This document shows, piece after piece, positions 29,159-38,012 of a stretch of DNA of 42,132 nt; position 1 is the stretch's first letter; every line of letters begins with the position of its first letter. Made by a program: the position numbers and the translations under genes. Under the pieces are notes generated by a model, which was given only the letters and a program-made list of their open reading frames with translations, did no database searches and was not told the origin of the DNA. Origin of the DNA: Xinfangfangia pollutisoli (lineage in GTDB: Bacteria; Pseudomonadota; Alphaproteobacteria; Rhodobacterales; Rhodobacteraceae); assembly GCF_020179405.1 (NCBI RefSeq), contig NZ_JAICBZ010000030.1, forward strand, positions 1 through 42,132, read 5' to 3'.

Positions 29159-29203
29159 TGGTGACCCCGGCAGGACTTGAACCTGCAACCTTCCCCTTAG
29201 GAG
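29159..29203. repeat. Left attachment site (45-bp copy of the tRNA-Arg 3' end)
   Basis: 45 bp identical to 37937-37981, from the CCA end through the T arm to the anticodon loop of tRNA-Arg on the minus strand. The 5' half of the tRNA is absent here, so this is an att remnant, not a tRNA gene. It lies 19 bp from the integrase stop codon. Confidence 0.93.
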
Positions 29204-29222
29204 CGGCACCGTCATATTCTGA

Positions 29223-30323
29223 TTACCTCTTGTCTTTCAGTAGTTTAACGACTTTTCCGCTTCTGCTCTGTACGGGCTTTGTACGGAAGCGCGCCCTGAT
29301 CGAAGCCTCGTCGAGTTCGGCGTGGGCATAGGTCCGCATAGGCAAGGTGGCGTCTGCCCACCGCCCGGCCTTGGCCGCTGTGACAGGGTCGACACCCTGC
29401 CGCACTGTCAGTTCGGTGTAGAAGCCATGGCGGCCCGCAGGGTGCGCAGAGATGAAGGAAATACCCGCGTTCTTGCAGATCGTTCGCCAGCGCTTTCCGT
29501 AGCTGCTTGGGTCGGAATAGCCGAAGACTCGTGCCGCCTTCACCTCGCCGGTCTTCAAGTTCACAGGCCGTTTCGGTGGTAGGTTTGCCAGCTCCACCAT
29601 CATCTCATGCGAGATCTCCACCCAGCCCGCGGAATGGCCTTTCTGCGCCCCCAGCCATACCCGCCGGTTCGTAAGGTCGAGGTGTGTGGGTTCTAGCGCC
29701 ACCGCCTGACCCACACGGGCGGCTGTTTCGAACATGAACCGTGCGAGTGCTGCGTTGTAGGGATCAGCGGCCGCGCAGAAGGCCTCGATCCAGGCTCTGT
29801 CCGAAGGCACCCTCTCGACTCGGCTCTGTTTTCCGCGCCTCTGATCCTGGGCGATACGCTCGAACTGGTCGTAGCGCTTAACCCGGATCATCGGAGTGCC
29901 CTTGATCTCATGCGAGTGGTTGATCACTGCCCGGGCGGGCGTGACGATATCCCGCCACCAGGTATCCACGGCAGCATCAGGTTTCAGCTTGGGGCCAAGT
30001 TCCTTGAGCAGCTTTCCAGTAATGGAGCCCAGCATCATATTGCCGATCTCCGCTGTGATCGGCAGCAACTGACGGGCGATATAGGGGTTCGTGTGGGTTT
30101 CGCTGTAAAGCAACACCGCATCAGCGAAGGTTAGCGCCGCCTCGTCTCCAAGGAGGTGACGGCGTCTTTGCCGGTCGGTTTCCGCTGCGATCCATGCCCT
30201 TGCGCCCGCTTCGTCAGAAGCGCCAGTGCTCTGGCGGTAGTATCCGGTGATCGGCCTGCCGTCGAATTCGACGCGGCCTCGGACCCAGAAGACGACACCA
30301 CGGCGATAGGTTTCGAGCGGCAT
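29223..30323 (-). CDS. int: Tyrosine recombinase (integrase)
   Basis: 366-residue phage-type integrase. The catalytic domain shows Arg203 (FETAARVGQAVALE), His294 and Arg298 (SAHPAGRHGF), a Trp322 at the usual His/Trp position (AGRWADA) and the nucleophile Tyr332 (MRTYAHAE). An N-terminal arm-binding/core-binding region precedes it. ATG 30323 follows GGAGGAA; longer in-frame starts would sit inside the preceding gene. The gene ends 20 bp from the left att site and is transcribed towards it. It should integrate and excise the element at tRNA-Arg(CCU). All catalytic residues are present, so it is probably active. Confidence 0.95.
   Translation of the reverse strand: MPLETYRRGVVFWVRGRVEFDGRPITGYYRQSTGASDEAGARAWIAAETDRQRRRHLLGDEAALTFADAVLLYSETHTNPYIARQLLPITAEIGNMMLGSITGKLLKELGPKLKPDAAVDTWWRDIVTPARAVINHSHEIKGTPMIRVKRYDQFERIAQDQRRGKQSRVERVPSDRAWIEAFCAAADPYNAALARFMFETAARVGQAVALEPTHLDLTNRRVWLGAQKGHSAGWVEISHEMMVELANLPPKRPVNLKTGEVKAARVFGYSDPSSYGKRWRTICKNAGISFISAHPAGRHGFYTELTVRQGVDPVTAAKAGRWADATLPMRTYAHAELDEASIRARFRTKPVQSRSGKVVKLLKDKR
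29268..29287 (+). other. Candidate integrase arm-type site (left)
   Basis: CTGTACGGGCTTTGTACGGA, within the end of the int gene, 65 bp inside the left att repeat. It matches 17 of 20 bases, in the same orientation, with 37817-37836 near the right att. It contains two TGTACGG-like half units. Paired sites flanking the crossover core are typical of integrase arm or excisionase sites; no binding evidence. Confidence 0.35.
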
Positions 30324-30532
30324 TTCCGTTCCTCCATTAGAATCAGGTCCAGTTGCTCCGGCGTGATGAGCATCGCGTTGCCAATGCGGCAGCACGCGCT
30401 GATCCGGTTTGCGATCTCCCGCAGCTTGCGTTCCGATATCACCAGGCCGCGCGCAGCCATCACATCAACCCAATCGACCGGCGTCTTGCCGGTATCGAGG
30501 ATCTTAGATCCGGTTGCGGGGAGGGCAGACAT
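30131..30532 (-). CDS. Excisionase/AlpA-like DNA-binding protein
   Basis: 133 residues. The N-terminal half (WVDVMAARGLVISERKLREIANRISACCRIGNAMLITPEQLDLIL, in parts) is a small helix-turn-helix or winged-helix domain resembling phage AlpA/excisionase-type proteins. The C-terminal half overlaps the start of int by about 190 bp, is low in hydrophobic residues and may be a tail. It is directly upstream of int and on the same strand, the usual position for a recombination directionality factor. The role as excisionase is inference. Confidence 0.6.
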   Translation of the reverse strand: MSALPATGSKILDTGKTPVDWVDVMAARGLVISERKLREIANRISACCRIGNAMLITPEQLDLILMEERKCRSKPIAVVSSSGSEAASNSTAGRSPDTTARALALLTKRAQGHGSQRKPTGKDAVTSLETRRR

Positions 30533-30604
30533 CGGTTCGCCTCTGGTTCAGTGTTTGGGTTTACGAACGGCATAGCGGGCGATCGACGGCTAACTTTGCG
30601 GGAT

Positions 30605-30639
30605 GTTCTGGTCTGCTCCGCCAAGCAGCAGACCAGAAC
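30605..30639. terminator. Strong hairpin between capsid gene and int module
   Basis: A perfect 13-bp stem (GTTCTGGTCTGCT at 30605-30617 with its complement at 30627-30639) around a 9-nt loop. It lies in the 214-bp gap between the capsid stop (30747) and the excisionase-like start (30532). No long T-tract on either side. Probably it insulates the int module from the capsid transcript. A second weaker GGTGG/CCACC stem lies at about 30,665-30,695. Confidence 0.6.
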
Positions 30640-30746
30640 TTTCGGGCCTCCCGTGGCCCGGAGGGGTGGTGACGCGGGCGAAAGACGCGCCACCAGATCC
30701 CTCAAAGCAGGGGCAGGGAAGGAGGAAGCCACCCCACCCCCGATCA

Positions 30747-32219
30747 TTACGCGCCCGGGTTGCGGAACCAGGAGGCGTAGGAAACGAAACGGGCATCCAG
30801 CGCCCAGACCAGGCGGAACTCGGTCCCGAGAGTTTCCCAGCCCGGCTTGGACTCGACACGCGGGCCGGCCTGACCGTCGAGGAACGAATAGGCAAGGCCA
30901 TCCGCGCTGGCCGGATTGCCGATCAGATACCAGGCCATGGGGCTGGTCAGGCCGACTTCCACGATCAGTTCCAGCGCGCCGGAGAAGGGGTTCACGTCAG
31001 CTGTCTTGGTCGCGTTGATCTCGGCCAGGACCTGTTGGGCCACGGTTTCCAGCTGCGGCGGGACAACCAACGCCCAAGGCTCGATGGCGTAGTATTCGCC
31101 GGATGCGCCCCGCTGGCTGCGCAGCGCAAGCCGCGCCTCCGACAGGCTGGTCACGTTGAGGGATGCGCCCGCAGCTGCCAAGTTTCCGTGATCGGTATGG
31201 AAAACCGTCTTACCATCCCGCATCGCATGCCCAAGTCCGGCATTGGCAAGCACCGGCTCCAGAAGCACGCGCCGGAAGCGCTCGGTAGCGCCGGCAACCA
31301 TCTTCCGGCCGATCTCTTCGAACATGCCGAGGTCGTCGTTGTAGATGGCCTTATTCGACAAAGCGAACAGCGCGCCGAAGTCGCGCGGCGCCGGCTTACG
31401 CTCACCGCCCTCGTGGATCGTCACGTGCTTGACTTCGCCGCCCTCGGCGATCTCGTCCGGCATCCCGGACGCAGACAGGGAAAGCAGGTTGCCGCCCCGA
31501 TAGTCCACGGCCGGGATCTCATGCGCCGCCCGGGCCAGCGCCGGGGTGATCTGTTCCATCTGGCGGGCGATCGACTTGTTCAGGGCGTCCTCGAGCACCA
31601 ACGGGAAGTCGCTGGTGGTGTGGGTCGCCATACGGATCGCTTCCTGCATGTTCATCGGCCGATGGCCGGCGCTACGCACCACGTGCATCGCCATATCGCC
31701 CAGCGTCAGGCCAGCGAACTCACGCCCGATCGTCGGAGTGTGGCGCCGGTCCATGCGCGCAAGCAAAGCGTCCGACAAGGCCGCGCGGCTCGTATTCTGC
31801 GCCGTGCCGGAGCCAGGACCGCGACCGTCGATGCGGACTTTCGGGCGGCTCCCCTTGATCTTGCTATACACAAGCGCAGTCAGGTTCGGCTTCTTTGCCG
31901 CGGGTTTGTTCTTGTAGAACGCCGCGAAACCTTCGTCGCCCTCCCCTTCAGTATCCGAGGCGGCAATCAACTCGTCGACCACTTCGCGGATTGCGGCCAT
32001 CGCCTCGGCCCCTGGCACTTTGTTGCGCTCAAGCAGGTCTACCAACGCGGCGATCTGGATCATCACCTCCTCGTCGAGTTCATCCTCGGATTCCATCAAG
32101 GGCGCGAAGATCTCCGCGAGCATCGGCGGATGATTTGCCTCCTTCAGACGCATGCGGAGTTGCGCAACCAAGCGGGCGGGCGGCTCGCCATCATGTTTCA
32201 TCCGGAAATCAAGCGGCAT
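30747..32219 (-). CDS. HK97-type major capsid protein with N-terminal scaffold-like region
   Basis: 490 residues. The C-terminal ~270 residues resemble the capsid part of Mu/ClpP-linked prohead systems: DFGALFALSNKAIYNDDLGMF, LLEPVLANAGLGHAMRDGKTVFHTDHGNLA, PWALVVPPQLETVAQQVLAEI, then NPFSGALELIVE and AWYLIGNPA (in parts). The first ~130 residues are acidic, helical and Pro/Ala-rich in the linker, like a delta/scaffold domain removed by the protease. Many relatives are a single protease-capsid fusion; here the protease is a separate gene overlapping by 11 bp. It should form a T-number shell on assembly. No portal gene is nearby. Confidence 0.85.
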   Translation of the reverse strand: MPLDFRMKHDGEPPARLVAQLRMRLKEANHPPMLAEIFAPLMESEDELDEEVMIQIAALVDLLERNKVPGAEAMAAIREVVDELIAASDTEGEGDEGFAAFYKNKPAAKKPNLTALVYSKIKGSRPKVRIDGRGPGSGTAQNTSRAALSDALLARMDRRHTPTIGREFAGLTLGDMAMHVVRSAGHRPMNMQEAIRMATHTTSDFPLVLEDALNKSIARQMEQITPALARAAHEIPAVDYRGGNLLSLSASGMPDEIAEGGEVKHVTIHEGGERKPAPRDFGALFALSNKAIYNDDLGMFEEIGRKMVAGATERFRRVLLEPVLANAGLGHAMRDGKTVFHTDHGNLAAAGASLNVTSLSEARLALRSQRGASGEYYAIEPWALVVPPQLETVAQQVLAEINATKTADVNPFSGALELIVEVGLTSPMAWYLIGNPASADGLAYSFLDGQAGPRVESKPGWETLGTEFRLVWALDARFVSYASWFRNPGA

Positions 32220-32826
32220 CTTTCTTCTCCTGTGTCTTGGGAATGGGCGATCCGGTCGCCCAACCGTTTTTCTTCGTCAGCCGGACAAGATCTTCGGGCG
32301 GCTGGTGGAACTTCGTGTAGTCGTAGGCCGCGACCATTTGGGGAGCCTTGGCCGCCTCGATCCGATCGGCGAAGCGCAGTTCCACGGCTTCTTCAGCCGT
32401 CAGCCAGGTTTCCGCCTTCATCCATGCGGCAATTCTGGCGACCGGATGCCCGGTGTGGCGGGCATAGGCCGCGGCATAGGTCGCGCTCATCTTGTCCAGC
32501 GCGGCCGCGGTGTCGCGCAGCTCGTCCGCCGTGCCGCCGCCCCAGGCGGAGGGCTCGTGGATCATCACCATGGCAGCGGGATGCAGGATGACCTCTTTCG
32601 CTGCAACCATCGGCAGGGTGGCGGCAGAGGCCGCGACCCCCTGGACATGCACCGTCACTGCACCGTGCCGCTCGACCTCTGCCATGAGCGCCGCACCCTC
32701 GAGCGCATCGCCACCGGGCGAGTTGATGAACATCGTCACCGCGCCCGGGTTGGCCGAAAGGACCCCCGCAAGGCGGCTGGCTGCGCCGGTTTCGATATCG
32801 CCGTTCAGTTCGAAGCGGGCGGACAT
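32209..32826 (-). CDS. ClpP-related phage head maturation protease
   Basis: 205-residue S14-type serine protease. NSPGGDALEGAALM is the ClpP oxyanion strand region, the catalytic Ser is in VQGVAASAATLPM, the His is in HPAAMVMIHEPSAW, and an Asp/Glu later completes the triad. Start 32826 is chosen because it follows the stop of the upstream small gene by 1 bp and gives a normal N terminus (MSARFELNGDIET). It cleaves the scaffold region of the capsid precursor during assembly. It overlaps the capsid gene by 11 bp, so the two are translationally coupled. Confidence 0.92.
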   Translation of the reverse strand: MSARFELNGDIETGAASRLAGVLSANPGAVTMFINSPGGDALEGAALMAEVERHGAVTVHVQGVAASAATLPMVAAKEVILHPAAMVMIHEPSAWGGGTADELRDTAAALDKMSATYAAAYARHTGHPVARIAAWMKAETWLTAEEAVELRFADRIEAAKAPQMVAAYDYTKFHQPPEDLVRLTKKNGWATGSPIPKTQEKKDAA

Positions 32827-32827
32827 A

Positions 32828-33049
32828 TCAGGCCGCCTCCACGGAACCGGCCGGAGCCAGCACCTTCTGCAAGGTGTAAGCCGGCGTCCGCCGCAGCAGC
32901 ACCCGGCCGCTCTCCGCATGGGGGCTGACCATGTAGAGGCAGTTCGCGAAGGAGATTTCGCTCTCGCTTTCTGCCGCCGGTTCAATGATCGAGAACAGCA
33001 CGATCTTGTAAAACGGGGCCGGAACCGAGAATGTCTGTGTCCAGAACAT
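32828..33049 (-). CDS. Small phage-type protein of unknown function (73 aa)
   Basis: 73 residues starting MFWTQTFSVPAPFYKIVLFSI and ending in KVLAPAGSVEAA. Mixed hydrophobic and charged, no signal peptide or clear motif. It sits between the 199-residue gene and the protease with gaps of 4 and 1 bp, so it is part of the capsid transcript. A structural or assembly role is likely by position only. Confidence 0.7.
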   Translation of the reverse strand: MFWTQTFSVPAPFYKIVLFSIIEPAAESESEISFANCLYMVSPHAESGRVLLRRTPAYTLQKVLAPAGSVEAA

Positions 33050-33053
33050 CGGA

Positions 33054-33653
33054 TCAGTCCCTGGCCGCGCGCCAGTTGCGCAGCAGTTCACGACGGCGCA
33101 ACTCATCTTCCTTGAACCACTCGGGATACGAGCTGAGATCCTCCGGAACCGAATGGGCTTCATCCCCTTCGGGCAGCCCAAGGTCGCGGGCTTCACGAAA
33201 CACGCGTTGCGCGATCTCGGTGGCCGAAATCGCCATGACGATGGAGGCCCTCGCACTGCTGCCCAGGTCGCGGATAAAGTTCTTGGTTTGATCGCGCAGA
33301 TCGGACCAGCGGCCGGCAACCACGGTACGGCAGTCCCACCCCTCGGGAGCATCCGGCCAGTCATAGCGCACCAACGCCACCCACATCTCTTCCCCCCCGG
33401 TGTAGGCGAATGGATCGATGGGCTGCAGCTTGTCCAAGGCCTGGCGGGCGAGGAAGTAGGCGCTGCCTTGATCGGTGTCCTTCGAAGCGTCGAGCATAAG
33501 TTGGAGCGTAAAGGCATCTTCCAACCCGTAGTCCGACCAGCGGTCTTCCCTGACAAGAACCGGGTTGATGTTGCGGGCGGTGAAGGTTTCGAATGCCTTG
33601 GCCGAGCAGCCGGTGATGGCGAGTAGAGCTTTTCGTTTCATTTGACCACTCAT
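33054..33653 (-). CDS. Protein with MerR-like HTH start, in the capsid operon
   Basis: 199 residues. The first ~50 (MKRKALLAITGCSAKAFETF, ... REDRWSDYGLEDAFTLQLML) look like a MerR/excisionase-type winged helix. The rest is acidic and helical (ALDKLQPIDPFAYTGGEEMWVALVRYDW), with no known domain. Starts at 33653 or, four codons later, at 33641; neither has a strong Shine-Dalgarno. It is the first gene of the capsid operon and lies directly after a promoter with an upstream palindrome, so it may regulate that operon or be an assembly factor. Family not recognised. Confidence 0.75.
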   Translation of the reverse strand: MSGQMKRKALLAITGCSAKAFETFTARNINPVLVREDRWSDYGLEDAFTLQLMLDASKDTDQGSAYFLARQALDKLQPIDPFAYTGGEEMWVALVRYDWPDAPEGWDCRTVVAGRWSDLRDQTKNFIRDLGSSARASIVMAISATEIAQRVFREARDLGLPEGDEAHSVPEDLSSYPEWFKEDELRRRELLRNWRAARD

Positions 33654-33674
33654 GATTTGTGCAGTTCGCTTCAA

Positions 33675-33726
33675 GTAATGAACCAATAGCGCCAAATTTT
33701 CAATCCATGTACACACATAATGTGTG
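33675..33726 (-). promoter_or_regulatory. Promoter of the capsid operon with upstream palindrome
   Basis: Minus strand TTGAAA (33703-33698), a 17-bp spacer, and CATTAC (33680-33675). Just upstream, at 33712-33726, CACACAT-A-ATGTGTG is a perfect 7-bp palindrome. Its centre falls about 51 bp before the expected start of transcription, the usual location of an activator site rather than a repressor site. Confidence 0.6.
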
Positions 33727-33739
33727 GTCTTTTGGAGAT

Positions 33740-33799
33740 CATCCCGGTGCGGGAACCCCGCCGGCCTTTGACGGACGGCGGGAGGGTGCTTTCGGGATG
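33740..33799. terminator. Nested hairpin upstream of the capsid promoter
   Basis: CATCCCG (33740-33746) pairs with CGGGATG (33793-33799), and inside it CCCGCCG (33757-33763) pairs with CGGCGGG (33776-33782). It lies between the stop of the 116-residue gene and the capsid promoter, so it probably separates the two transcripts. No U-tract. Confidence 0.5.
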
Positions 33800-33822
33800 C
33801 GGTGACGCTCCGCCGCAATGCG

Positions 33823-34173
33823 CTAGATCAGCATCCGGGCGGGCGGCACACCGGCCAACGCGCATACCTCCCCCCAGAATTCCCGGGTAGGATTGAAGAC
33901 GCCAAAACCGACCTCAATGAGAAGCTTCCGGGCAAAATCCTGAGCAGTCAGAGGTGGGAGGCGCTGCATTTCCTTCTCAACGGCGACCTCAACATCAACG
34001 CGTCGGTTGCACTCATCTTCGGAAATGCCGGGTTCGTTGGAGTGATCGTGCAGGCGGCACCATTCGGCGAATAGCCGCGAAATCGGGGTTTCTTCGGATG
34101 CCGCAAAGGCCAGAAGTGTGCCCGGCATCACGGTGAGAACGGGTGCAGTGGTCAGGAAATCACGCCGTTGCAT
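33823..34173 (-). CDS. Hypothetical protein with Tat-like N terminus
   Basis: 116 residues. It begins MQRRDFLTTAPVLTVMPGTLLAFA, a twin-Arg plus hydrophobic start reminiscent of Tat signals. The rest is acidic and helical (SEDECNRRVDVEVAVEKEM). Similar short proteins with a Tat-like start are common in Rhodobacterales prophages, and I know no function for them. It overlaps the 69-residue gene by 14 bp. Confidence 0.7.
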   Translation of the reverse strand: MQRRDFLTTAPVLTVMPGTLLAFAASEETPISRLFAEWCRLHDHSNEPGISEDECNRRVDVEVAVEKEMQRLPPLTAQDFARKLLIEVGFGVFNPTREFWGEVCALAGVPPARMLI

Positions 34174-34369
34174 GGCGCACCCTCATCAACTGTTCGGTGC
34201 GGCGCAGGGCCGAGCGGACGTAGGACCGCGCCTCGCGCTCGCCCTGGCTGTAGCCCTGCGGGCGCTGGGAGGCATCCAAGGCGAGCGTCAGACAATCATG
34301 GATTTCCGCCAGCCGGGCGGAAGCTTGCGCGCCTGCCTTGCGCGCGTCATCGAGAACTGGCATGTTCAT
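34160..34369 (-). CDS. Small hypothetical protein (69 aa)
   Basis: 69 residues, MNMPVLDDARKAGAQASARL..., mostly helical and basic at the C terminus. GGAAAGG precedes the start. It lies between the Arc-type repressor and the 116-residue gene, overlapping the latter. No motif recognised. Confidence 0.65.
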   Translation of the reverse strand: MNMPVLDDARKAGAQASARLAEIHDCLTLALDASQRPQGYSQGEREARSYVRSALRRTEQLMRVRHATA

Positions 34370-34404
34370 GCTCAGAACCTTTCCTAGAGAGTTGGGTTTG
34401 TTCG

Positions 34405-34438
34405 AAGGCCGGTTGGGGTTGCCGCCCCGCCCGGCCTT
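34405..34438. terminator. Hairpin at the end of the minus-strand Arc-type gene
   Basis: AAGGCCGG (34405-34412) pairs perfectly with CCGGCCTT (34431-34438), with an inner GGGG/CCCC pairing. The stem touches the repressor's stop codon (34438). It may partly end or process the transcript before the 69- and 116-residue genes. Confidence 0.45.
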
Positions 34439-34593
34439 TACTTTTGCAGCGCGAGCTCATCCCGCGACATCGCCAGGCGAACCGCCCGGACGATCTCGGA
34501 GTTTTGGCTGCTCATGTTCTTCTCCGCTTGAAGCTCGATCCACGCCTTCACATCGGAAGGCAAGCGGAGCTGTAGTGGCTTTCTGTCGGTCAT
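34438..34593 (-). CDS. Arc-type ribbon-helix-helix repressor (51 aa)
   Basis: 51 residues, MTDRKPLQLRLPSDVKAWIE..., the size and pattern of the P22 Arc/Mnt family. An N-terminal beta strand (LQLRLPSD) reads DNA in the major groove as a dimer, then two helices follow (KAWIELQAEKNMSSQNSEIVRAVRLAM). It is divergent from the larger Arc-type gene at 34676 across an 82-bp region with three palindromes. Very likely one half of a bistable switch or an autorepressor. Confidence 0.88.
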   Translation of the reverse strand: MTDRKPLQLRLPSDVKAWIELQAEKNMSSQNSEIVRAVRLAMSRDELALQK

Positions 34594-34604
34594 GCGTGCC
34601 CCTC

Positions 34605-34674
34605 ATGGCTCAGTGCCATCACAGATGGCTCATAGCCATGATTGCGTCAAGCGCAAATTATGGCTCTATGCCAT
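34605..34674. promoter_or_regulatory. Three ATGGC-N5-GCCAT operators
   Basis: Three 15-bp palindromes, ATGGCTCAGTGCCAT (34605-34619), ATGGCTCATAGCCAT (34625-34639) and ATGGCTCTATGCCAT (34660-34674). All share the same 5-bp arms; centres are 20 and 35 bp apart. They fill the region between two divergent Arc-type genes, with the last touching the start codon of the plus-strand gene. A TTGACG hexamer (minus strand, 34650-34645) places the middle site inside a promoter. Confidence 0.85.
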
Positions 34675-34675
34675 C

Positions 34676-35083
34676 ATGACCTCGGAGCGCAAACCACAGA
34701 CACAAGACAAGTTCATCCTTCGCCTTCCCGATGGGATGCGCGACCGGATCAAGGCTGCGGCCGAGGCCAACAACAGGTCGATGAACTCCGAGATCCTCGC
34801 CGCCCTGGACGAGAAGTTCCCGCCGCCGTTTTCGCGCCAGGAGACCATGAGGATGATCAAGGCCTCCCTGATAATGTTTGCCGACGATAAGGCCGGTCTG
34901 CGTGAAGGCACCGCGGCGAAGAACGAGGCCTTTGCTCTTCTGGTCATCGAGAAGATCCTGGGTGAGAAGAACCCGGGCCATCTTCTCGATGAGATCGAGG
35001 CGGCATCGATCGACATTTCGGATGTCAGCATCAATCGATTTGTCGAATGGCAGAACGAGATGCTGGCACGGCTGCAGGACTGA
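34676..35083 (+). CDS. Arc-family DNA-binding protein with C-terminal extension
   Basis: 135 residues. The N terminus (KFILRLPDGMRDRIKAAAEANNRSMNSEILAALDEKF, residues ~12-48) is a ribbon-helix-helix Arc domain. The remaining ~85 residues are an acidic helical part of unknown role, perhaps oligomerisation. ATG 34676 starts 1 bp after the third operator, so this gene's translation start is inside a likely repressor-bound region. Longer in-frame starts upstream would run through the operators and are unlikely. Confidence 0.9.
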   Translation: MTSERKPQTQDKFILRLPDGMRDRIKAAAEANNRSMNSEILAALDEKFPPPFSRQETMRMIKASLIMFADDKAGLREGTAAKNEAFALLVIEKILGEKNPGHLLDEIEAASIDISDVSINRFVEWQNEMLARLQD

Positions 35084-35219
35084 GGCTGACCATCGTTGGG
35101 GCCAACGTTAAGCACCCGACCAGACCAGAGGTACGTATCAGATTCGCTCGGTAGCCTGAGCGCAGGCGGCTGATCTAACGGCTCGAGCGCGACGTGTTAA
35201 CCTATGCCATCTAGATCTT

Positions 35220-35259
35220 AACCATCATGGTTGACAAAGTTCGCATGCATGCCTAAGTT
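35220..35259 (+). promoter_or_regulatory. Promoter and operator of the XRE/ImmA pair
   Basis: TTGACA (35231-35236), a 17-bp spacer, and TAAGTT (35254-35259), before the XRE start at 35288. AACCAT-C-ATGGTT (35220-35232), a perfect 6-bp palindrome, overlaps the -35 box. It is a likely site of autorepression. The rest of 35,084-35,219 shows no gene. Confidence 0.6.
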
Positions 35260-35287
35260 TTAACTTGAACCCTACGGGAGAGCGACC

Positions 35288-35662
35288 ATGGCAACCACAG
35301 AACTCGGAAAGGAACTCCGCCGGCTCAGAATAGACAAGGATGAACGATTGCTCGACATGGCGGACCGCCTCGAGAAGTCTTCGGCCTTCATCTCGGCAGT
35401 TGAGACTGGGAAGAAGAGCCCGCCCTCAGACTTCGAGGAGCTGGTTATCCGCGCATATCGTCTGATCGGTGACGCGGCCAATCGGATCCGGCAAGCGGCG
35501 GATCGTTCGCGCAAAACCTTCACGCTCCAAGGAGACACAGATCTCCAGCGTGACACTTTCGGGCTTATGGCGCGCAAGATGCACACCCTGTCTGATGACG
35601 AACTGAATCAGATTTTCCAACTGCTGAAAGGCGGAGGAGCCAAAGATGGCGGAACCCGATGA
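35288..35662 (+). CDS. XRE-family helix-turn-helix regulator
   Basis: 124 residues. The N-terminal Cro/CI-type HTH is visible (LGKELRRLRIDKDERLLDMADRLEKSSAFISAVETGKKSPP, about residues 6-46). A helical linker follows, ending in FGLMARKMHTLSDDELNQIFQLLKGGG. GGGAGAG precedes the start. It overlaps the ImmA-type gene by 17 bp, the classic ImmR/ImmA pairing in which the protease degrades the repressor to induce the element. Confidence 0.88.
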   Translation: MATTELGKELRRLRIDKDERLLDMADRLEKSSAFISAVETGKKSPPSDFEELVIRAYRLIGDAANRIRQAADRSRKTFTLQGDTDLQRDTFGLMARKMHTLSDDELNQIFQLLKGGGAKDGGTR

Positions 35663-36185
35663 TTACCTGGTCCCTCCGAGAAGCTGGGACCAGATCGATA
35701 GCGAAGCGGATCGGATCCGCGAAATGCTGAGAATGACCGACCATCCGTATATCGACATCGTGCGGGTGGTCGAGAACGTTGTCTGCAACATCATGGAGCT
35801 TTCCGAGTTTCAGATTGGGACAAAGGTCGAGATGGGGCGCGATGAGGGGCTTACCTGCCCGCGAGGGTCTTTCATCCGGTTCCGTGAAGATGTGTACAGG
35901 CGTGCGTGTGAAGGAGATCCTCGATCGCGCTTCACATTTGCGCATGAACTCGGGCATCTCATACTACACAGGAACGCTCCGATGGCGCGTGCGTCCAAGC
36001 GGGACGGGACCAAAGCCTTCAGACTAGCAGAACCTCAAGCCAATCGATTCGCGGCGACTCTGCTGATGCCGCGAATGCACATCTCGAGGGAAGATGAGGC
36101 GCGGCATCTAACGGAGCGGTTCGGTGTCTCATGGGACGCAGCGTGCAACCGGCTGTCCGATCTGAAAACGAAAGGGAAGCTCTAA
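35646..36185 (+). CDS. ImmA/IrrE-family metallo-endopeptidase
   Basis: 179 residues with the zinc motif FAHELGHLILH (His100, Glu101, His104). A conserved later segment, AEPQANRFAATLLMP, gives Glu129 as the likely third ligand. In ICEBs1 and many phage elements this family cleaves the adjacent XRE repressor to trigger excision or induction; here the XRE gene overlaps it. GGAGGAG before the start. The active site is complete. Confidence 0.92.
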   Translation: MAEPDDYLVPPRSWDQIDSEADRIREMLRMTDHPYIDIVRVVENVVCNIMELSEFQIGTKVEMGRDEGLTCPRGSFIRFREDVYRRACEGDPRSRFTFAHELGHLILHRNAPMARASKRDGTKAFRLAEPQANRFAATLLMPRMHISREDEARHLTERFGVSWDAACNRLSDLKTKGKL

Positions 36186-36193
36186 AGAAAAAA

Positions 36194-36215
36194 GGCTCAG
36201 GTTGGCGCCCGAGCC
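36194..36215. terminator. Terminator after the ImmA-type gene
   Basis: GGCTCAGG pairs with CCCGAGCC (one mismatch) around a 6-nt loop, flanked by an A-rich stretch on the left and CTTTCC on the right, 8 bp after the stop. It can act in both directions. Confidence 0.6.
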
Positions 36216-36280
36216 CTTTCCGAAAATCTGCATCGTGCATGAGGGGCTCGACGATGCCGAGCCGATCAGGCGACGAACTG

Positions 36281-36478
36281 TCAGTCTCCTAGAACAAGGC
36301 TGATCATATAGTTCTCCTCGACTGATTTGGCAAGATACGCCCCGCCGAAGGAACGGAACCGTGGATAAGCATTCTTTGCCCCCGGCTCCGCCTGGTTATC
36401 GGTACATTTTTCGCCCCTGGCGAACATGCCCGATGACTGGCCGCCTCCTGCTCGCTCGCGCGTTCGGGAAGCGTGCAT
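36281..36478 (-). CDS. Small protein of unknown function (65 aa)
   Basis: 65 residues, MHASRTRERAGGGQSSGMFARGEKCTDNQ..., basic, with AYPRFRSFGGAYLAKSV towards the end. A very good Shine-Dalgarno (GAGGAGAGG) precedes ATG 36478, which is the main reason to accept it. It is divergent from the 37-residue gene. No family recognised. Confidence 0.55.
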   Translation of the reverse strand: MHASRTRERAGGGQSSGMFARGEKCTDNQAEPGAKNAYPRFRSFGGAYLAKSVEENYMISLVLGD

Positions 36479-36580
36479 GGCCTCTCCTCGTCCCTGAGTG
36501 AGGTCAGATCCTGAGATCGGCGTGGGCGGTGAATTTTCCGCCCGCACCTCGGTCAACTTGCCATTCAAAGGAGATCCATC

Positions 36581-36694
36581 ATGGCAAAAGGTACCTTCAA
36601 AATCGGCCGCAATGCCGGGAATGGCCGTTTCACCACGGTCAAAACTGCTACGACGAAAAAAGCCACCCACGTGGTTGAGACGATCAAGAAGTGA
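36581..36694 (+). CDS. Very small basic protein (37 aa)
   Basis: 37 residues, MAKGTFKIGRNAGNGRFTTV..., Lys/Thr-rich, ending THVVETIKK. AAAGGAG eight bases upstream is a strong ribosome binding site, and a clean terminator follows 6 bp after the stop, so it looks like a single-gene transcript. The KGTFKIGRNAxxGxF start resembles short proteins seen in mobile elements and near toxin-antitoxin genes; I cannot assign a role. No HTH or membrane segment. Confidence 0.7.
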   Translation: MAKGTFKIGRNAGNGRFTTVKTATTKKATHVVETIKK

Positions 36695-36700
36695 CGGGAC

Positions 36701-36725
36701 CGGCGGGCTCCAAAAGGGCCCGCCG
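36701..36725 (+). terminator. Terminator of the 37-residue gene
   Basis: CGGCGGGC (36701-36708) pairs perfectly with GCCCGCCG (36718-36725) over a 9-nt loop, followed by TGTTCATCCCTTT. The remaining gap to 36,851 holds only a GCACCCC-C-GGGGTGC palindrome (36794-36808). Confidence 0.7.
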
Positions 36726-36851
36726 TGTTCATCCCTTTGTGTGCCGCGTTATGTTTAGGATCGTTTAGGCTTTCGATTTTGTTAAGTTCAGCGGCACCCC
36801 CGGGGTGCGAATTACCCGCGTACAGACCCGTTATGGAAGGACCCGGACCGC

Positions 36852-37757
36852 TCACAGGCGCACCCCGACCCTGAGCAGATCTTGTTCCCGCACCAACCCG
36901 CCTTGGATCATGCAATGTGCGACTTCGGCGCTGATGCCAGAAGGCGGGATGTAGGCGCCGCACTTCACCTTCTTGGCCCAGAAGGTCGCTAGATCACGCA
37001 CGGCATCAGTGCGAGCGACCACCGGAGCGGCAGCCTGACAGTCCTCCCACCGGCGCTGATCGAGCCAGTTATCGGCATAGGCGAGATACTGCGGCTTGTT
37101 TCCGGCGTTCTCTGCCCTGTAGTGCCTGGCTGCACCAAGAATGACCTCGGCGCCGACACCGGCCTCCAAGGCCTCCACAAACAGCCTCTCTGCACGTTGC
37201 CTGTCTCTGGGCCTAGGATAGACCTTCCAGAATTCTTCAAAGGCTTTAGACGTGTGTGCGGCAGCGCCGCCAACACAAGGTTCCATTACTGGTTCCTTTA
37301 CAAGGTTAGTGTCGGGATTTCCGACACGGCTTTGCCCGTTTTTCCGACACGGCTCTGCCGGAAATTCCGACACGGCTTTGGGGGTCTGTGTCGGGATTTC
37401 CGACACGGGTTTTTGGGCTGACTTCGCGACCGGAGCGGCCGGTGACTGCGGCGTTTCTTCGCTGCAGCCTTGCCCGTCGAAATCGGCCTCGAAGGACAGC
37501 TTATAGCGTGTCGGCCGCTGCCGTTTCGTGGCCGGATCGATCGACCGGACACGCCGGATCAGCCCGCGTTCCTCAAGGTGCGCAAGCTGCACATTCACCG
37601 TGTCGCGGTTCATCTCGCAGGCATCGGCCAAGAAAGCCTGCGTCGGGAAGCAACCGTGCGCCGGGTTGTGGCAATCGGCCAGGATCAGCAGGACGATCTT
37701 CGCGGAAGGCTTCAGGCCGCGCTGCGAGAAGGCCCAGTTGGTGGCAGCATGGCTCAT
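36852..37757 (-). CDS. Phage-type replication initiator (winged HTH, lambda O-like layout)
   Basis: 301 residues. The N-terminal winged HTH domain (GLKPSAKIVLLILADCHNPAHGCFPTQAFLADACEMNRDTVNVQLAHLEERGLIRRV, about residues 14-70) is typical of phage replication or DnaT-like proteins. A Pro/Ser/Thr-rich linker of ~70 residues follows, then a helical C-terminal domain (EEFWKVYPRPRDRQRAERLFVEAL...) of the kind that recruits helicase. The linker-coding DNA holds four iterons, as in lambda O. Start 37757 overlaps an upstream small frame by 4 bp (ATGA). It is the rightmost gene of the element, transcribed inward. Confidence 0.85.
   Translation of the reverse strand: MSHAATNWAFSQRGLKPSAKIVLLILADCHNPAHGCFPTQAFLADACEMNRDTVNVQLAHLEERGLIRRVRSIDPATKRQRPTRYKLSFEADFDGQGCSEETPQSPAAPVAKSAQKPVSEIPTQTPKAVSEFPAEPCRKNGQSRVGNPDTNLVKEPVMEPCVGGAAAHTSKAFEEFWKVYPRPRDRQRAERLFVEALEAGVGAEVILGAARHYRAENAGNKPQYLAYADNWLDQRRWEDCQAAAPVVARTDAVRDLATFWAKKVKCGAYIPPSGISAEVAHCMIQGGLVREQDLLRVGVRL
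37309..37408. repeat. Four iterons: candidate replication origin inside the initiator gene
   Basis: TTCCGACACGG occurs at 37319, 37342, 37365 and 37398 in the same orientation. Periods are 23, 23 and 33 bp. The first and last copies extend to a 21-bp palindrome-like unit (GTGTCGG and CCGACAC arms). Because 23 is not a multiple of three, the repeats are read in different frames, so the conservation is at DNA level. A more AT-rich stretch (37,280-37,308) lies next to the array. Confidence 0.8.
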
Positions 37758-37918
37758 GCTGGCACCCGATCATTCAAGGTGCTGCCGGGAACAAACTGTG
37801 AATTCGCCGGGTCCGGCTGTACGGGATTTGTACGAGCGTTCCCGTCCTGTTCGCTGAAATCGGCTGCAAAAAGCTTCAAGCGGAGCCTGAGTGGATCTGC
37901 TTCTTCCTCGCAACACAT
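37754..37918 (-). CDS. Possible small ORF before the replication initiator (54 aa)
   Basis: ATG 37918 opens a 54-residue frame (MCCEEEADPLRLRLKLFAADF...) whose stop overlaps the initiator's start as ATGA. That coupling is the only support: no Shine-Dalgarno and no motif. The sequence also contains one of the candidate arm-type sites. Confidence 0.35.
   Translation of the reverse strand: MCCEEEADPLRLRLKLFAADFSEQDGNARTNPVQPDPANSQFVPGSTLNDRVPA
37817..37836 (+). other. Candidate integrase arm-type site (right)
   Basis: CTGTACGGGATTTGTACGAG, 101 bp inside the right att repeat. 17 of 20 bases match the site at 29268-29287 in the same orientation. In the circular form the two would flank the att core on either side, as arm sites do. 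Confidence 0.35.
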
Positions 37919-37936
37919 TGCCAAATAAGGGTTTTT

Positions 37937-37981
37937 TGGTGACCCCGGCAGGACTTGAACCTGCAACCTTCCCCTTAGGAG
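37937..37981. repeat. Right attachment site (45-bp copy inside tRNA-Arg)
   Basis: Identical to 29159-29203. Here it joins the chromosomal 5' half of the tRNA, so a full tRNA-Arg is rebuilt. The copy runs from the CCA end to just past the anticodon; the bases beyond it differ between the two sites. Confidence 0.93.
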
Positions 37982-38012
37982 GGGGACGCTCTATCCGTTG
38001 AGCTACGAGGCC
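37937..38012 (-). tRNA. tRNA-Arg (anticodon CCU)
   Basis: 76 nt with an encoded CCA. The acceptor stem GGCCTCG pairs with CGGGGTC (including G-U pairs). The D arm starts TAGCTCAACGGATAGAGC, the anticodon loop CTCCTAA gives CCU, and the T arm has GGTTCAAGTCC. It is the integration target of the element; its 3' 45 nt now come from the element's att copy, without change to the product. Confidence 0.96.

Follow-up and report, generated by a model that had tools for sequence, protein, structure and literature searches.

Capsid-forming phage-inducible chromosomal islands (cf-PICIs) encode a capsid protein, a head protease, a portal, connectors, both terminase subunits and an HNH protein (PMC10690885). 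Among the Gram-negative phage-inducible chromosomal islands (PICIs), 21 of 29 reference elements carry a capsid gene, such genes not being needed for transfer, and the element 11capE shares with its helper a region that holds cos (PMC10111431). PmCI172 likewise carries a capsid homologue, with a Mu-like helper and small heads of 37-39 nm (PMC6092414), and a 2018 paper reported Gram-negative PICIs only from Gammaproteobacteria (Fillol-Salom 2018). Here and below, statements on published systems follow extracts of the papers cited. We analysed a window of 42,132 nucleotides from Xinfangfangia pollutisoli (Rhodobacteraceae; assembly GCF_020179405.1), which is the entire contig NZ_JAICBZ010000030.1 (C113) of a 4.4 Mb genome in 188 contigs, and which contains an 8,778-bp element integrated at a tRNA-Arg gene. 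This element has its own capsid and protease genes, both under purifying selection, and a packaging-type site shared with a prophage on contig C154 of the same genome. We judge it probable, from the sequence evidence set out below, that it is a cos-type phage satellite, which would make or redirect a small head and borrow the terminase, portal, tail and lysis functions of a helper.

The element is bounded by exact 45-bp direct repeats (29159-29203, a partial tRNA-Arg 3' end on the integrase side, and 37937-37981), whose spacing gives its length and which can be extended to 54 nt at 94% identity. The tRNA-Arg(CCT) gene into whose 3' end it is inserted is still whole (37937-38012, minus strand; ARAGORN and Rfam), and the G+C content is 60.6% inside the element and 66.9% outside. 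The head genes comprise a major capsid protein of the gpT/PF25209 type (490 aa, 30747-32219, minus strand; PF25209 2e-29, phrog_4523 4e-82) and a ClpP-type head maturation protease (205 aa, 32209-32826, minus strand; PF00574 2e-24, phrog_94 7e-50), the latter in a separate open reading frame (ORF) that overlaps the start of the capsid gene. Against PDB profiles the only matches of the capsids were weak (E 0.02-0.08), to chains of the Mu gpT type and to a single further capsid. The original prediction, which described attachment (att) repeats at tRNA-Arg, a tyrosine integrase, separate protease and capsid genes, Arc-type and XRE/ImmA switches and an initiator with iterons, and recognised no packaging, portal, tail or lysis gene, held on each of these points, with the exception of an "excisionase-like" gene for which we found no significant family match.

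In its own capsid and head protease the element resembles the cf-PICIs; in contrast to them, it shows no portal, connectors, terminase subunits or HNH protein, and it thus falls outside the cf-PICI definition. We scanned its 14 called genes against Pfam and PHROGs, and none matched a terminase, portal, connector, tail or lysis family above chance-level scores; lysis genes thus gave no match, but capsid and protease are encoded. Among stop-to-stop frames that overlap called genes by less than 30%, the longest has 155 codons, leaving no room for a large terminase or portal, and profile searches found neither hidden among the small ORFs, as the original prediction had allowed they might be. No Pfam or PHROG match was found for a small terminase, HNH protein or head-tail connector, roles for which the small proteins g73, g116 and g69 (below) could still qualify if very diverged.

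The comparison with capsid-carrying Gram-negative PICIs is closer in strategy than in detail. Like them, the element is small and integrated, with its own integrase, replication module, regulators and capsid, and packaging would fall to the helper; the capsid of the window also matches the Mu gpT family, and the helper of PmCI172 (compared by description only) is Mu-like. Unlike these PICIs, which the extracts place in Enterobacteriaceae and Pasteurellaceae, with alpA, primase, mostly one gene direction and 10-20 kb, the window gave no match to an AlpA-type regulator or primase, and its element, at 8.8 kb, lies outside the typical PICI size (approximately 12-15 kb). The gene order also differs from that of PICIs, running integrase-(ORF)-capsid-protease-regulators-cos-initiator, with the head genes adjoining the integrase. 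In relatives, small genes ahead of the integrase gave weak HTH_17 matches below cut-off in L016, L055 and L057, and none in L003 and L083.

Comparison of the element with the other contigs of its genome identified a 26-bp identity between positions 36796-36821 and contig C154. It overlaps a cos-like site, GGGGTGCGAATTACCCGCGTAC-N11-GGAAGGACCC (36802-36844, plus strand), which the original prediction had overlooked. The 18-base core, allowing at most one mismatch, occurs twice in the genome, in the element and in C154, and its reversed control not at all. On C154, 68 bp separate the site from a putative small terminase gene downstream, after which come a large terminase gene of the lambda gpA type (PF05876, PF20454) and a lambda-type portal. 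Enzymes of the gpA type cut cos sites. The element would thus carry the packaging site of its helper, as cos-packaged satellites do, with C154 as the presumed helper and cutting as the predicted step; a cos-like region common to satellite and helper is likewise described for 11capE and EcCICFT073. The borrowing of a packaging machine, which the original prediction had proposed, gains direct support from this site, and the helper prophage for which it had suggested looking in the genome has a candidate in C154, with its matching site, gpA-type terminase and lambda-type portal.

Two PF05136 portals were found in the genome, one in C154 and one in C178. The latter (L017, 1310-13275) is a second satellite-like element, cf-PICI-like and located at tRNA-Glu, with a large terminase, portal, integrase and fused protease-capsid (37% identical to the window capsid) between 20-bp direct repeats 11,946 bp apart. 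We considered C178 as the source of the shared cos-like sequence and rejected it, as stretch L017 gave no motif match and the two genomic copies are those of the element and C154.

We sought relatives in named genomes, in 13 genomes of the genus and in 394 genomes drawn from the family, and used profiles to look in 56 loci for head and packaging genes (large terminase, portal, protease-capsid), for g196 and g73, and for tape measure, integrase and initiator. The profiles were built from those loci, so that their E-values refer to small databases, and capsids were picked up via the protease profile and an A1-based capsid profile. Absence of a gene applies to the stretches examined, which cover 9 to 21 kb for each of the nine elements of the capsid clade described below. 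Large terminase and portal were both not found in 16 of the 56 loci; three of these could not be classified (L060, which lies at the start of a contig, and L021 and L095, whose capsids are orphans), which left 13 portal- and terminase-free elements: that of the window, L016, L003, L004, L055, L056, L057, L058, L059, L062, L063, L064 and L066 (L058 and L066 lie near contig ends, and absence there is limited accordingly).

Nine of the 13 (the window, L016, L003, L004 and L055 to L059) formed a single capsid clade with SH-aLRT support of 100, and in none of the nine was a portal or large terminase found. The tree has 54 rows and was made by a quick method with a midpoint root for drawing only; L095 and L099 were left out, L064 and L100 trimmed, and L060 and L021 kept as unclassified. 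Identity to the window capsid ranges across the clade from 91% down to 42%, and protease and capsid are separate ORFs in eight members and fused in L059. The clade sits among cf-PICI-like elements that have portal and large terminase, and two full prophages lie apart from it on long branches; the positions of L018, L020, L063, L064 and L059 are unsure because of their long branches. Prophages that have terminase and portal carry capsids with only 26-32% identity to that of the window. In the stretches of 9 to 21 kb examined, the nearest relatives are thus not seen as parts of 30-45 kb prophages, the finding that the original prediction had said would count against it. Among viral contigs we found no relative with the same reduced gene set (capsids at most 39% and proteases at most 47% identical), and no g196 or g73 homologues in the viral-contig relatives found by profile scans.

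The head genes appear to be maintained. Between the window and L016, the Nei-Gojobori ratio of non-synonymous to synonymous substitution rates (dN/dS) was 0.074 for the capsid, 0.092 for the protease, 0.32 for g73 and 0.57 for g196, values that are rough because dS is 0.76-1.34. The search of related genomes that the original prediction had called for showed members at tRNA-Arg, tRNA-Trp, tRNA-Cys, tRNA-Glu, tmRNA (L055, L057) and other sites. Att repeats measured 45 bp in the window, 24 bp in L004, 16 bp in L059 and, weakly, 13 bp in L055, and none of at least 13 bp was found for L003, L016, L057, L058 or L066. In the case of L056, the 9,003-bp contig G227:C18 has identical 123-nt ends, indicating an apparent circle of 8,880 bp; it contains a Rep_3 initiator, 22-nt repeats, a primase-like gene, a MerR-like gene, head protease, capsid and a cos-like site, and gave no integrase match in the profile census.

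We also identified elements with a similar content outside this clade. The Klebsiella aerogenes plasmid pYD-K10_2 (L064, NZ_CP142848.1) and Rhodovastum atsumiense RHOAph (L063, NZ_OW485609.1) resemble the window element in size (approximately 10.5 kb) and in having protease-capsid with large terminase and portal not found. They differ in that protease and capsid are fused, with no more than 29-30% identity to the window capsid, and in further genes: AlpA and a small terminase, with an integrase also present, in pYD-K10_2, and ParA and a toxin-antitoxin pair in RHOAph. These plasmids suggest that the protease-capsid arrangement lacking terminase and portal arose more than once.

The cos-like motif was distributed across both satellites and prophages. 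Scanning the 2.09 Mb of retrieved loci with a two-block pattern returned 19 matches, eight of them in portal- and terminase-free elements, against none for the reversed motif; the match in L088, with 7 mismatches and a short spacer, is probably due to chance. The exact pattern occurred at 17 sites in 12 of 388 family genomes (control 0), comprising three satellites (window, L055, L062), three cf-PICI-like elements (L087, L093, L094), seven sites beside prophage packaging genes (C154, L190, L191, L192, L195, L196, L199) and four further sites considered below. In L018, L190, L192, L199 and the cf-PICI-like L093 the site lies approximately 40-70 bp upstream of a putative small terminase gene. 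The strict motif was additionally found in 22 IMG/VR contigs, in 19 of which, and always in the same relative orientation, a large terminase gene follows within approximately 0.7-1.1 kb; the remaining contigs (L200, L206, L213) have less than 1 kb of sequence on that side, too short to test. A search of the 51-nt site against isolated phages gave no meaningful match (best E=1).

Satellite and prophage share a site within one genome in four pairs: the window and C154, L004 and L020, L055 and L190, and L056 and L233. When the 24 prophage sites were ranked by similarity to each satellite site, the prophage of the same genome came first for L055 (41 vs 35) and for L056 (44 vs 32), and third, tied second, for the window, whose best match was L192, a prophage whose large terminase and that of C154 share 82% identity. 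L233, the partner of L056, has terminase, portal, fused capsid and tape measure, all in open frames. Two of 9 satellite hosts had a prophage bearing the strict pattern, compared with 5 of the 379 remaining genomes (p = 0.009 by a one-sided Fisher test that takes no account of relatedness). With a relaxed pattern the site was found in 9 of the 12 host genomes searched, and not in G049, G259 or G225, the last of which hosts the unclassified L060. Taken as a best guess from these sequence matches, the helper of the window element would be C154.

Upstream of the protease we identified four ORFs, of regulatory or no assigned role, that add to the gene content given in the original prediction (73, 195, 116 and 69 aa). 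The 195-aa protein g196 (33054-33641, minus strand) resembles DNA-binding domains of the MerR type in a PDB profile search (best E 0.0037), and we infer that it may act as a late-gene regulator. A homologue was detected in 11 of the 13 elements without portal and large terminase, and likewise in four of the cf-PICI-like type (L078, L083, L093, L094); the gene precedes protease-capsid in the former and portal-protease-capsid in the latter. The 73-aa protein g73 (32828-33049, minus strand) stands between g196 and the protease in five elements, the position that the portal occupies in cf-PICI-like elements, and gave no significant match in Pfam or PHROGs (PDB profile best E 0.06). We considered and rejected g196 as a small terminase, since L093 carries its own small terminase (phrog_57, 1e-26) separately from its g196 homologue and the profile is of the MerR type.

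Elements of intermediate content were also found. In L058 neither portal nor large terminase was found in the stretch examined, but a small terminase gene is present (phrog_57, 9e-31), as is a diverged version of the cos-like site, with 6 mismatches. The cf-PICI-like L093, besides sharing the MerR-like gene, has the same insertion site as satellite L004, between the same two host genes, presumably serA and serC. Arranged by content, the elements run from those with terminase, portal and capsid to those with small terminase and capsid and finally to those with cos and capsid, which suggests a stepwise reduction of the head module, in a direction that we infer.

Under the satellite reading, induction of the helper would lead to excision of the element, which would replicate from its own origin at the iterons. 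The helper terminase would cut the resulting concatemer at the shared cos, and the DNA would be packaged through the helper portal into a shell built wholly of the satellite capsid, or co-assembled with helper capsid protein so as to make the head small. The satellite protease would cleave the shell protein, and helper tail and lysis functions would complete the particle. By analogy with PmCI172, a genome of 8.8 kb would suit a small head.

Several observations weigh against this reading or against C154 as helper. C154 is seen only as a 21.7-kb contig, in which the small terminase, a helix-turn-helix (HTH) protein, is named by position, and the window capsid is 28% identical to C154's own capsid, the one its portal normally meets. 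The prophage paired with L004 ranks 15th of 24, and L190, the partner of L055, has its portal and protease-capsid spread over several frames, so that it may be decayed. Five of the 13 portal- and terminase-free stretches gave no match to the motif (L016, which has a site elsewhere in its genome, L057, L059, L063 and L064), many of the IMG/VR terminases are near-identical and their 19 contigs are thus not independent, and four exact sites (L193, L194, L197, L198) have none of the packaging genes searched for alongside. Some relatives are partly damaged: the L004 initiator is split over two frames, and L016, the nearest relative (capsid 91%), is interrupted by copies of an insertion sequence (IS), presumably IS3-like. 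Finally, knockout of the capsid gene was tolerated in a Gram-negative PICI (PMC10111431).

Two of these loci merit description in their own right. Genome G012 contains the L016 head module and integrase at 2.29 Mb and, at 0.396 Mb (L234), an initiator fragment 72% identical to that of the window with the genome's single cos-like site, beside an IS copy like those at L016; because these parts lie apart with matching IS copies, the L016 satellite seems to have been split in two. The sites with no packaging genes alongside are L194:18751 (G050), L197:19008 and L198:19192 (both G048) and L193:1107 (G321). The L194 stretch holds an Eco57I-type methylase gene (PF07669), and may for that reason be an island with restriction or defence cargo.

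The alternative that survives best is itself a version of the satellite reading. As in SaPIbov5, the satellite capsid would co-assemble with that of the helper, for example as pentamers, into heads too small for the helper genome; we regard this as a serious possibility, if somewhat short of an even chance. The SaPIbov5 protein Ccm has an HK97 fold, is 24% identical to the helper capsid, occupies pentamers and forms no capsids alone (PMC8569155), and in both systems the satellite encodes a homologue of the helper capsid. SaPIbov5 is packaged from cos by the terminase of its helper, as is predicted here. The similarly low identity between the window and C154 capsids, and the lack of an encoded portal, fit this model. 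In contrast, the authors of the SaPIbov5 work assumed cleavage of Ccm by the helper protease, whereas the window element encodes, and its relatives conserve (dN/dS 0.09), a ClpP-type maturation protease of its own, and its capsid groups with those of portal-encoding cf-PICI-like elements rather than with helper capsids.

We find it unlikely that the main role of the capsid is to attack the helper phage by disrupting the assembly of its heads instead of forming transducing particles. Ccm expressed alone does cut the titre of its helper phage (PMC5052747), and the tolerated capsid-gene knockout (PMC10111431) also speaks for this reading, but the integrase, origin and packaging-type site point to transfer, with which interference is compatible. 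Slightly less probable still is a degraded prophage or cf-PICI whose capsid and protease are left over after loss of packaging and tail genes, since, although L093 makes descent by loss plausible through its MerR-like gene ahead of portal-protease-capsid and the integration site it shares with L004, and although damage is seen in L016 and in the L004 initiator, nine elements have the same reduced gene set, selection on capsid and protease is strong, the core frames of the window element are open, several members keep the cos-like site beside the replication gene and one member is apparently episomal, so that neither a gene set confined to a single genome, nor broken frames, nor relaxed selection was found for the element. 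Random decay, against which the original prediction had also argued, is therefore unlikely, given a conserved nine-member clade, a capsid dN/dS of approximately 0.07 and one apparently circular plasmid member.

The remaining genes of the element include an integrase, regulators and an initiator. The tyrosine integrase (366 aa, 29223-30323, minus strand; PF00589 3e-8, phrog_1 6e-20) is overlapped by an upstream ORF of 133 aa (30131-30532, minus strand) that may be an excisionase or regulator by position and had no significant Pfam or PHROGs match. Further upstream of the head genes lie g116 (116 aa, 33823-34173, minus strand; no Pfam or PHROGs family match), the small conserved protein g69 (69 aa, 34160-34369, minus strand), with homologues in L003, L055 and L059, and a small Arc-type DNA-binding protein (34438-34593, minus strand; PF03869 3e-5). 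On the plus strand these are followed by a larger, divergent Arc-type regulator (34592-35083; PF03869 9e-16), an XRE-type regulator (35288-35662; PF13560 8e-6, just under the curated cut-off) and an ImmA/IrrE-type (M78) metalloprotease (35646-36185; PF06114 2e-15). When nine of the element's proteins were scanned for defence genes, the XRE and ImmA proteins alone gave matches, which were to CapH/CapP-like and RmrA regulators. The lambda O-like replication initiator (36852-37757, minus strand; phrog_270 4e-32) ends approximately 8 bp from the cos-like site and contains four copies of the iteron TTCCGACACGG (37304-37412, plus strand), the probable origin; among the loci examined, only satellites L055 and L004 also had this 11-mer in at least two copies. 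Elsewhere in the window, a thiamine pyrophosphate (TPP) riboswitch (1804-1908; Rfam RF00059) lies ahead of minus-strand ORFs at 1-1765, which we take to encode a periplasmic binding protein and permease.

The strategy as such is already known, because gammaproteobacterial PICIs and SaPIbov5 carry a capsid gene without packaging genes. The view of the element as a reduced, minimal protease-capsid variant is supported, but its novelty was overstated in the original prediction, capsid-carrying Gram-negative PICIs having been described (21 of 29; PmCI172). In the open-licence literature, a scope outside which most subscription papers fall, we found no description of such elements in Alphaproteobacteria, nor of this lineage, host group, capsid type with separate protease, gene order or plasmid form.

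These results extend capsid-carrying satellites to the Rhodobacteraceae, including one that apparently lives as a plasmid, and make graded states of the head module visible, with terminase, portal and capsid, with small terminase and capsid, or with cos and capsid. With the shared cos-like sequence, genome sequence alone is enough to propose helper prophages for satellites, and the question of whether a satellite shell protein assembles on the portal of another phage becomes testable. More tentatively, and at less than even odds, we suggest that these elements may constitute a separate alphaproteobacterial satellite family, both integrated and plasmid-borne, whose own capsid and protease build a complete shell of small size on the portal and terminase of a sequence-matched helper. 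If true, this family would represent a step between PICIs and cf-PICIs, in which the hybrid junction of the head lies at the portal vertex instead of the tail.

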